A stretch of DNA of 20,780 bases from the IMG/VR virus record IMGVR_UViG_3300021964_006579, positions 1 through 20,780 of that record. One strand, written 5' to 3'. The translations under genes and the position numbers were made by a program. This document shows positions 1 to 17,549 of this stretch, in pieces. Within the stretch, counting starts at the first letter, position 1. The number at the start of each line of letters is the position of its first letter. Below the pieces are notes generated by a model. The model was not told the origin of the DNA. It made no database searches and saw only the letters and a program-made list of their open reading frames with translations. The stretch comes from a virus.

Positions 1-350
1 ATATTGAATTGTGAAAAGGGTATGGGCTAGAGATAGTCAGGGTTGCACCTTCCCCAGCAAGGAAGTGTTACAAGAGGTTCAATAGGTTGCGCAGTTATCA
101 AACATGCGACCTCGTATCTAGGCCAGCAAGTAACCAAACTTGCGTGACGGTTATGAAAATAACTTTACCCTGATAGGCTCACAGCCTTTGCCGCTAGATA
201 AAAGTTGATAATCAAATCCAAGCTCTGCTGGGGAGTAACTTGGTGGGTGAAACTAGAATATACATTAACTAATTATCTGGATACTAATTAAAACTTTACT
301 ATGAGGGTGGCTATTTCACCCTAATAACCCGTGGTTTATAGAAGGAGAAT
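1..350 (+). ncRNA. Candidate large structured RNA or structured 5' leader (class not recognised)
   Basis: No reading frame of useful length exists here, in a genome otherwise almost free of gaps. The + strand can form these local hairpins: 46-53 with 61-67 (one bulged C), 84-93 with 105-112, 126-130 with 139-143, 150-154 with 159-163 capped by GAAA, 175-179 with 183-187, and 304-309 with 317-322. Possible long-range helices are 50-59 with 226-235 (9 Watson-Crick pairs plus one wobble), 95-101 with 205-211, 115-121 with 194-200, 37-43 with 167-173, and 245-252 with 314-321. Two of these pair a hairpin loop with a distant strand, which implies pseudoknots. Large phage-associated RNA classes such as GOLLD, ROOL or T-large are possible, but I cannot assign one. 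The 5' end may lie outside the window. It could instead be a leader controlling the gene at 354. Helices of 7-8 bp can arise by chance, so the case rests on their combination and the lack of coding. Confidence 0.55.
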
Positions 351-353
351 GAT

Positions 354-602
354 ATGGATAAGATTGTTTTAAATACTGTTTTAGAAATGGCTGAGACTCA
401 TCTTACAAATGTTCAGCAAGAGATAGCTAAATTAGAGGCCAGTAAGGTCAAGATTGATGAGCAGATAAGCGCATATAAAAAATACTTGACAGATAGTGTA
501 GAAGCAATTAGGATAGTGAGAAAAGAAATGCAAGACGAACCAGTAAATACTCCAACTCCAAGCAGTAATATTGTTCAAGGTCACATTCAGGGGTTAGGAT
601 GA
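354..602 (+). CDS. Small coiled-coil protein, function unknown
   Basis: This 82-residue protein is not recognised. Residues about 10-60 are almost entirely helical with spaced Leu, Ile and Val between charged residues (the VQQEIAKLEASKVKIDEQI stretch), which fits a coiled coil. The last 20 residues are rich in Pro, Thr and Ser and probably disordered. The start is supported by an AGAAGGAG ribosome site about 6 bases upstream of ATG. It is the first gene after the structured region at 1-350, so any cis-acting control in that RNA would act on this gene first. The stop overlaps the next start (ATGA), which indicates translational coupling. A small virion, chaperone or adaptor protein are all possible. 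Confidence 0.7.
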   Translation: MDKIVLNTVLEMAETHLTNVQQEIAKLEASKVKIDEQISAYKKYLTDSVEAIRIVRKEMQDEPVNTPTPSSNIVQGHIQGLG

Positions 603-15607: not shown

Positions 15608-16046
15608 TAAAAGTAAGTATAAACATCAGTCTACTGGCGATCACTGTACATGCGCCGCTTATTTAGCGGAAATGATGTGCTTGAGGCTCGCGGAGCATAA
15701 AAATGAAGGAAATTTAACTTATAAGTTCTGGAACAAGAAACCTTGGGACTGGACTTTTAAGCAACAATTATTTACTGCCAATGCTCTCGTTAAAAGGTAT
15801 GGGGAGATTGCCGTCATAAAAGCGGTCAACTCCCCCTACTTATCTAAAGTATTCTCTCTAAAAAATAAGAGAGTTGAGCCAGAAATCAAAAAGCAATTAA
15901 AGCTTATTGAAGATAATAAAGATAAGAAACAAGAGTTGAATGTAAAAGAACAGCCAAAAACTAGAAAAAAAACATACGGTAAAAAATCTAAATTAAGTAA
16001 AATTAGGAATATAAAGAAAGATGGCAAAGAAGAAAGCGAAAGCTAA
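15585..16046 (+). CDS. Basic hypothetical protein
   Basis: The 153-residue product starts with a basic MTKRKRTDKSKYKH stretch. A compact helical region follows, beginning STGDHCTCAAYLAEMMC (16-32; His20, Cys21, Cys23, Cys32) and continuing through conserved-looking aromatic residues (KFWNKKPWDWTFKQQ). The last 50 residues are very Lys-rich and likely disordered, suiting nucleic-acid contact. I chose ATG 15585, which gives the smallest overlap; in-frame starts at 15552 (ATG) and 15531 (TTG) would extend it by 11 or 18 residues. The product is unrecognised; its position directly upstream of recA/uvsX hints at a recombination accessory. Confidence 0.5.
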   Translation: MTKRKRTDKSKYKHQSTGDHCTCAAYLAEMMCLRLAEHKNEGNLTYKFWNKKPWDWTFKQQLFTANALVKRYGEIAVIKAVNSPYLSKVFSLKNKRVEPEIKKQLKLIEDNKDKKQELNVKEQPKTRKKTYGKKSKLSKIRNIKKDGKEESES

Positions 16047-17130
16047 ATTTGACGACGATATTGTGAGCAATCAAATCATTGCGAAGTATGGGGACATAGT
16101 TGAAGAAGGAACAAAGGTATTAGCAGACCTACAAAACTTTAATGTTATTGGTATATCACCAGCATTGGACTTGGCTCTTGGTGGAGGTCTAAGGGAAGGT
16201 AGCGTGGTTGTTATGACCGGCGACCCTAAAACTGGCAAGACTACAACTTCACTATACTTTGCGGCAAAAGCTCAGGCAGCAGGTAAAAATGTATTTTATT
16301 TCAATACCGAGGGAAGATTAACAAAAGAGAACTTCACTGGTATCAAAGGTTTAGATGCTAGTAAGATTAAGATTGTTCAAGCGACAGACAATCAACCCGT
16401 TGTGTCAGCAGAAACATTTCTTAACAGTATTGAAACGTATGTTAAAAACACTCCCAACTTTGTAGCGATTATTGATTCTGTATCTAATATGGTTCCGCAA
16501 GATGAGCTTGATGGAGATGTTCGCGGCGGCGTTAGAGCGCAACTGCCAAGACTTCTTTCTATGTTCTTCAAGCGAATCAGTAACGATGTAGCTAGAACCA
16601 AGTCGATATTAATTTTTATTACTCACAATATTGCTAATACTGGCGGCTCAAGATGGTCGCCAGCAAAGATGGCTGATGCCGGAAACATGCTTCAGTATCA
16701 AGCTGGAACCAATATGGTTATCACGCACAGGGGTAAATGGGAAGAAACCGATGACGCTGGACATGATGTAGGACAGGTGGCTAACTGGGTGGTTAAAACT
16801 TCCGCTGCTGGTGGAAAACCAAACTCTAACGCAATGTCTTATATTAGGTATGGCATTGGGATTGATGAAGTTAGAGAGCTTTGCGAGATTGCGAATGAAC
16901 TTACATTCGTAAAACAAGCCGGAGCTTGGTATACCATTACTACGGCTATAGAAAATAGAACTGACCCAATTATTAAATCTTTACTTGTTAAAAATGAAGT
17001 AGATGCAGACAATTTAGAAGCTGTAGAAAAGTTTTTCAAATTCCAAGGTATGGCTAACCTAAGTAAATTCTTGGAACAAAATGAAGAGATACAACAATTC
17101 CTCTATCAAGAAATAAGAAATGTACTATGA
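16021..17130 (+). CDS. uvsX: RecA/UvsX-like recombinase
   Basis: It would form filaments on single-stranded DNA and catalyse strand exchange for recombination-dependent replication and repair. The 369-residue product carries Walker A GDPKTGKT (67-74), the NTEGR segment at 95-99 with the catalytic Glu97, Walker B VAIIDSV (148-154), and the FITHNIANTGG segment (199-209) matching the loop 2 region. IRYGIGIDEVRELCEIANEL and AGAWYTI correspond to the C-terminal RecA core (compare GAWYSY in RecA). Sequence details are nearer general RecA, but the context (a UvsY-like gene two genes on) favours a UvsX function. It overlaps its upstream neighbour by 26 bases and its stop forms ATGA with the nuclease gene. 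The symbol is given for role; recA-like is equally fair. Confidence 0.88.
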   Translation: MAKKKAKAKFDDDIVSNQIIAKYGDIVEEGTKVLADLQNFNVIGISPALDLALGGGLREGSVVVMTGDPKTGKTTTSLYFAAKAQAAGKNVFYFNTEGRLTKENFTGIKGLDASKIKIVQATDNQPVVSAETFLNSIETYVKNTPNFVAIIDSVSNMVPQDELDGDVRGGVRAQLPRLLSMFFKRISNDVARTKSILIFITHNIANTGGSRWSPAKMADAGNMLQYQAGTNMVITHRGKWEETDDAGHDVGQVANWVVKTSAAGGKPNSNAMSYIRYGIGIDEVRELCEIANELTFVKQAGAWYTITTAIENRTDPIIKSLLVKNEVDADNLEAVEKFFKFQGMANLSKFLEQNEEIQQFLYQEIRNVL

Positions 17131-17549
17131 AAGTTGTAGGTTTAAACGGTCGTGAGTACAATATAAATTTAAAGAAATATATTGTAAAAAGAAATGACAA
17201 GACCGTTAAATCAAAATATCATATAGCAGCAAGAGAGCTTCTTGCTGAGATGTTTAATGGATACACGGTTTTAGAAGAAGTAAAGTTACCGGGCTCAAGA
17301 TGTCCTAGTAAAAAATCCGTTTTGTTTCTTGACTTTTTTATTCCAAGTCTTATGCTTGGTATAGAAGTTCACGGACGGCAACACTACGAGTTTTGTAAAT
17401 TCTTCCATAAAACTATGGCTGGGTTTTTACAGTCTAATAAAAGAGACTTTATAAAGCAAGATTGGTGCGAGCTAAACGGTGTAGAATTAATCGTTTTTAA
17501 ATACTCAGACAGCATAGAAGATTGGAGAAATCAAATTGACAGCCGCTGA
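17127..17549 (+). CDS. Vsr/DUF559-like PD-(D/E)XK nuclease
   Basis: The 140-residue protein has the features of a small PD-(D/E)XK-fold endonuclease of the Vsr/DUF559 type. An N-terminal helix carries Glu37 (AARELLAEMF). The strand LFLDFFIP holds Asp69, and GIEVHGRQH holds Glu80 and His82. The NKRDFIKQDWCELNGVELIVFKY segment matches the KR-D...L...G..v.rf pattern after the catalytic core. His in place of the usual Lys is seen in Vsr-like enzymes. It lies between the recombinase and the UvsY-like gene and overlaps both, so a role in recombination intermediates or DNA nicking is likely. A homing endonuclease is less likely, because no intron, intein or interrupted gene is present. Confidence 0.65.
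   Translation: MKVVGLNGREYNINLKKYIVKRNDKTVKSKYHIAARELLAEMFNGYTVLEEVKLPGSRCPSKKSVLFLDFFIPSLMLGIEVHGRQHYEFCKFFHKTMAGFLQSNKRDFIKQDWCELNGVELIVFKYSDSIEDWRNQIDSR

Follow-up and report, generated by a model that had tools for sequence, protein, structure and literature searches.

A candidate new family of structured phage RNAs with two sister forms in one uncultured phage group

The window (the whole 20,780-nt stretch of DNA analyzed here) is the 20.8-kb viral contig G000, and its first 353 positions contain no open reading frame of at least 50 amino acids. What does this stretch encode, if not a protein? The initial annotation, which correctly described the start as gene-free, proposed a network of local hairpins, two pseudoknots and a multibranch domain, and suggested that this might be a large phage RNA, of a class either known or new. 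It named an absence of covarying pairs among homologues as the result that would count against it. We found homologues, and their covariation is strong.

Relatives and conserved fold of the window RNA

The folding energy of the gene-free sequence does not stand out (z = -1.19; equally good folds in 11 of 100 shuffles), so the case for an RNA rests on conservation, not on stability. To collect relatives, we gathered 80 related viral loci via a search with the neighbouring glycosyltransferase. In a blastn comparison against these loci, the closest relative (L002) was ~85% identical to window positions 1-360, and three more (L050, L067 and L081) were 62-70% identical. We widened the set by iterated profiles, pattern scans and then a covariance model of the core (R1). 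Altogether, full-length copies of the RNA, hereafter type A, turned up in 17 more viral records, one of them 157 kb long (G074). Most of these full-length relatives were matched by nhmmer with E-values of 1e-65 to 1e-107, and R1 matched the window at 118-251 with 120 bits (the E-values of R1, and of the model R2 described below, are rough). Type A has a total length of ~340-420 nt, roughly 380, and just its opening bases are missing from the window, lost at the contig edge; the L002 copy reaches ~35 nt further 5', up to a TATAAT box.

Comparison of the relatives shows that the predicted type A fold is conserved and that it includes two long-range helices, P8 and P10 (Table 1). In the core alignment (A3, 28 pairs), standard pairs occupy 89.8% of the cells and 18 of the 28 pairs show changes on both sides. 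The covariation score is 0.460, as against 0.056-0.173 with partners displaced by 1-3 columns; none of 500 shuffles reached it. We also applied a strand-swap test, in which the 3' strand of each helix is exchanged between sequences (20,000 permutations). It supported P2, P5, P7, P8, P9 and P10 (0-4 of 20,000 permutations), with ~12-17 sequences per form in the tests; these values are optimistic because the test keeps composition and not phylogeny. For P9, none of the 20,000 permutations of 11-12 non-redundant sequences reached the observed value. Four of the five P5 pairs have changes on both sides in the core alignment. P8 was found in all 15 type A copies tested and extends to as many as 18 bp in L050, and P10 occurs in variants such as GGGUCAU/AUGACCC, GGGUGAAA/UUUCACCC and AGAGUCAU/AUGACUCU. 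P4 gave no significance in a wide-window strand-swap test. The closure of the multibranch domain shows no covariation because its pairs are nearly invariant.

Table 1. Features at the start of the window; helix coordinates were read directly off the window sequence.
Feature	Position	Strand	Remarks
Type A RNA, 3' ~90-95%	1..334	+	5' end beyond contig edge
Helix P2	25-29 with 34-38	+	strand-swap 0/20,000, 11-14 sequences
P3, AGG/CCU with conserved GUUNNCACCU	39..50	+	sequence conserved; little covariation, weak
P4 hairpin	85-90 with 106-111	+	seen by eye in most members
Multibranch domain, closed by GGC 121-123 with GCC 190-192	121..192	+	closing pairs nearly invariant
P5 hairpin, conserved loop UARCCAAA	126-130/139-143	+	strand-swap 0/20,000
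P6 hairpin, GAAA loop 155-158	150-154/159-163	+	variable; missing from some members
P7 hairpin, conserved loop UCACA 179-183	175-178/184-187	+	covariation; 0/20,000
P8 long-range helix	194-201/273-280, plus 204-206/267-269	+	strand-swap 0/20,000
P9 hairpin, loop 230-233	218-222/239-243 and 226-229/234-237	+	covariation; common to type B
P10 helix	245-252 with 314-321	+	strand-swap 4/20,000, 12 non-redundant sequences
3' tail UAAUAACCCGUGG	322..334	+	contacts covary in type B homologues
F0, small coiled-coil ORF, 82 aa	354..602	+	neighbour, outside the RNA

The local elements of the initial annotation held up well. Its hairpins are present in the window and conserved in the relatives, as is its multibranch domain with three hairpins, one of them GAAA-capped. 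The long-range pairings fared worse. One proposed pseudoknot (54-59 with 226-231) is complementary in the window and already broken in L002; positions 226-229 form the inner stem of the conserved hairpin P9. The other (95-101 with 205-211) is likewise complementary in the window, pairs at 5 of 7 positions in L002 and was not seen in other relatives. The helix proposed to close the multibranch domain (115-121 with 194-200) can form in the window and in a handful of relatives, and is absent from most; its 3' strand belongs to P8, and the conserved closure is the GGC/GCC pairing of Table 1. A repeat of CCAGCAAG, also pointed out, is not conserved. That description did not include P8, P10, the part of the RNA upstream of the contig edge or the contacts of the tail (328-334) with the loops of P9 and P7. 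In the window, 115-121/194-200 competes with P8, which may reflect either a switch or chance.

A sister form and the contacts of the 3' tail

Partial R1 matches on the P9 hairpin in other records led to a second form, type B, of ~300 nt. With a model of this form (R2), we counted 19 copies, spread over 16 records from the same group of uncultured phages; the count leaves out a marginal match in G031 (E 0.098). In an alignment of eight type B copies (A4, 32 pairs), the covariation score is 0.395, compared with at most 0.126 when partners are slid. The type B tests exclude G040, for which the extracted stretch did not contain the RNA. Independently, R2 also matches the P9 hairpin in most RNAs of type A, including the one in the window (208-244, E 0.0015). 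P9, P10 and an AU-rich linker ahead of the tail are common to both forms, and a scan of 2.78 Mb of retrieved DNA with a descriptor of these three elements picked up known members exclusively. By comparison of their sequences, types A and B are shown to be sister forms with a common predicted 3' domain composed of P9, P10 and the tail.

R1 and R2 never both gave a full match in the same record. Many of the records are fragments, so the absence of A or B from any one of them is weak evidence. Three records (G001, G019 and G044) carry two R2-matched type B copies each, and the paired copies have diverged (L291 and L305, L288 and L306, and L301 and L307, respectively); only one of the two is adjacent to a tRNA in G001, and likewise in G019. 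Three records of the same group, G054, G055 and G060 (128-161 kb), contain neither type A nor type B, and may harbor a further diverged form.

The comparison of type B copies also shows that the 3' tail pairs, as predicted from compensatory changes, with two upstream hairpin loops. The first half of the tail pairs with the P9 loop in variants such as GGCG/CGCU, CACCAC/GUGGUG and ACCAUU/AAUGGU (0 of 20,000 permutations); the second half has the b6 loop as its partner (CCGAC/GUCGG, CAAG/CUUG and CGAG/CUCG; 8 of 20,000). The counterparts in type A are CC with GG of the P9 loop and YGUGR with UCACA of the P7 loop. In the window, 328-330 can pair with 230-232 in the P9 loop and 331-334 with 179-182 in the P7 loop. 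Type A tail contacts are mostly invariant, with one compensated case (UCGCA/UGCGG in L250), and thus rest on the analogy with type B and on this case. By that analogy, the window would keep the tail-to-loop layout of type B in mostly invariant pairs.

Two other pairings were considered and set aside. As a 5' pseudoknot of type B, AAGAC/GUCUU was matched or surpassed in most copies by ACGUAA/UUGCGU, and support for a 5' pseudoknot in this form is modest (166 of 20,000). A helix enclosing the tail, P11, was weak (p ~0.018, with one misplaced anchor in the run) and was not used.

Genomic setting and possible roles

Type A lies between F3, a gene without an assigned role, and F0, which is followed by F1 and an SSB gene. 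F0 belongs to no clear family. Just upstream of type A, a TATAAT-like box is present in 13 of the 14 lineages with upstream sequence. Type B is often a neighbor of tRNA genes, commonly closing a phage tRNA cluster: 10 of 17 copies lie at most 75 nt downstream of a tRNA, and in G006 and G010 the RNA directly abuts it (gap 0). Some type A copies lie 0.8-1.5 kb from a tRNA; in the window itself ARAGORN found no tRNA and no tmRNA gene. Four loci have a permuted tmRNA (RF04321) beside tRNAs (L004, 3302-3616; L010, 3382-3740; L014, 3888-4246; L294, 2144-2338), for which ARAGORN gives the tag ADESLALAA in L004. Elsewhere in the window, an HNH/homing-endonuclease-like ORF (17127-17549) adjoins a UvsX-like gene (16021-17130).

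We consider it probable that window positions 1-334 encode a non-coding RNA of a new phage family, which would be made as a stable transcript of its own and act in trans. Type A would be transcribed from its own promoter. For type B, transcription would start either at a promoter of its own or with a tRNA array of which the RNA is the final element.

The main competing explanation is a cis-regulatory leader, riboswitch-like or an attenuator, that controls the downstream F0-F1-SSB operon. Type A is usually directly upstream of F0, and in most loci, the window included, its 3' end falls ~10-40 nt before the F0 ribosome-binding site. Many copies have a T run just before that site, although the window itself has none following the RNA, and the helix that competes with P8 in the window would fit a switch. 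However, this competing helix is not conserved, and a gene other than F0 follows the RNA in G074 and L079. F0 is conserved in ~60 loci, mostly without the RNA directly upstream. In L067, a GC hairpin and T run after the RNA, and then a new promoter, separate it from F0. Of 17 type B copies, 10 are followed within 120 nt by a TTGAC...TATAAT-like promoter that would serve the next gene. Own promoters, next genes other than F0 and F0 genes without the RNA all favor an independent non-coding RNA, and we regard the leader as unlikely, though conceivable in the window.

For the independent RNA, our overall account is of a new family whose forms A and B replace each other in one large uncultured phage group, whose tail is clamped by two hairpin loops, and which operates in trans in the infected cell, perhaps on the translation apparatus; we judge this account, on balance, the likely one. 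More tentatively, the tail-locked fold could serve, either by itself or together with proteins, as a scaffold for a translation-linked function during infection; this link to translation is suggested solely by the tRNA and tmRNA neighbors.

Comparison with known RNA families

A search of the window against Rfam release 15 gave no match at gathering thresholds, and only chance-level matches at E-values up to 10. Among the relatives, Rfam recognized the tRNA and tmRNA neighbors and not the RNA itself, and the tmRNA family matched neither type A nor type B. These results support the second branch of the initial proposal, a new class. Models of GOLLD and ROOL had no match at E-values up to 10 in the window and in the type A loci L217, L220 and L252, or at E-values up to 1 in the type B loci. 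Beyond the gathered records, a blastn search of 50,697 phage records with the two forms as queries found no match, and a genome scan with the core pattern gave 14 matches, none upheld by the model. R2 found nothing in 190 genomes of one bacterial class, a search that shows little since it had no positive control genome. The cultured Microcystis phage Mel-JY01, which matches two window proteins, has a gap after a tRNA-Leu and lacks RNA of types A and B. We found no description of the family in the open-access literature searched, outside of which lie most subscription papers and all preprints. In the sense that it matches no known family by sequence or model, the family is new.

GOLLD and ROOL raise the prospect of an independent RNA for RNA-only assembly, with tail and loops pairing between molecules. 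The setting is similar, a large phage RNA near tRNA islands, and the 3' region is conserved as in GOLLD (PMC12286853); the loop-tail contacts might arise within one molecule or between two. Given the lack of a sequence or model match to either family, and a length about half of theirs, we find this improbable. A degenerate or unusual form of a known RNA, for instance tmRNA or RNase P RNA, is very doubtful: a permuted tmRNA does occur at or near the same place in relatives, but Rfam has no match to the RNA, and tmRNA and type B co-occur in the same records, so that type B is no replacement for tmRNA. Chance structure in an AT-rich intergenic region would fit the weak folding z-score and is refuted by covariation: compensatory changes are seen among the 15 sequences of type A and the 17 of type B.

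To our knowledge, few phage RNAs of such size and structural order are known, and GOLLD and ROOL have no assigned function. The present family offers two diverged forms and a compact, covarying tail-to-loop lock, and its size (~300-400 nt) suits SHAPE, cryo-EM and in vitro assembly. If our account is right, it would provide another, smaller system for studying the reason that large structured RNAs accompany tRNA arrays in phages. A parallel is found in phage T4, whose stable RNAs C and D, also without assigned function, lie inside a tRNA cluster and are far shorter than types A and B. The permuted tmRNA is likewise phage-encoded and shares the neighborhood in relatives, but is a separate gene.

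GOLLD is a large structured non-coding RNA of phages and prophages that has a conserved 3' region and frequently lies close to tRNA islands; ROOL is phage-associated, also near tRNA islands, and has multiple pseudoknots. Neither has an assigned function, and both form homo-oligomeric RNA-only cages (PMC12286853). Types A and B resemble GOLLD and ROOL in being phage-encoded, structured and found in a tRNA neighborhood (the 10 of 17 type B copies within 75 nt), whereas many GOLLD members exceed 800 nt. ROOL, at ~660 nt, differs in sequence and structure. In a looser sense, then, the family joins the large phage RNAs without an assigned function.
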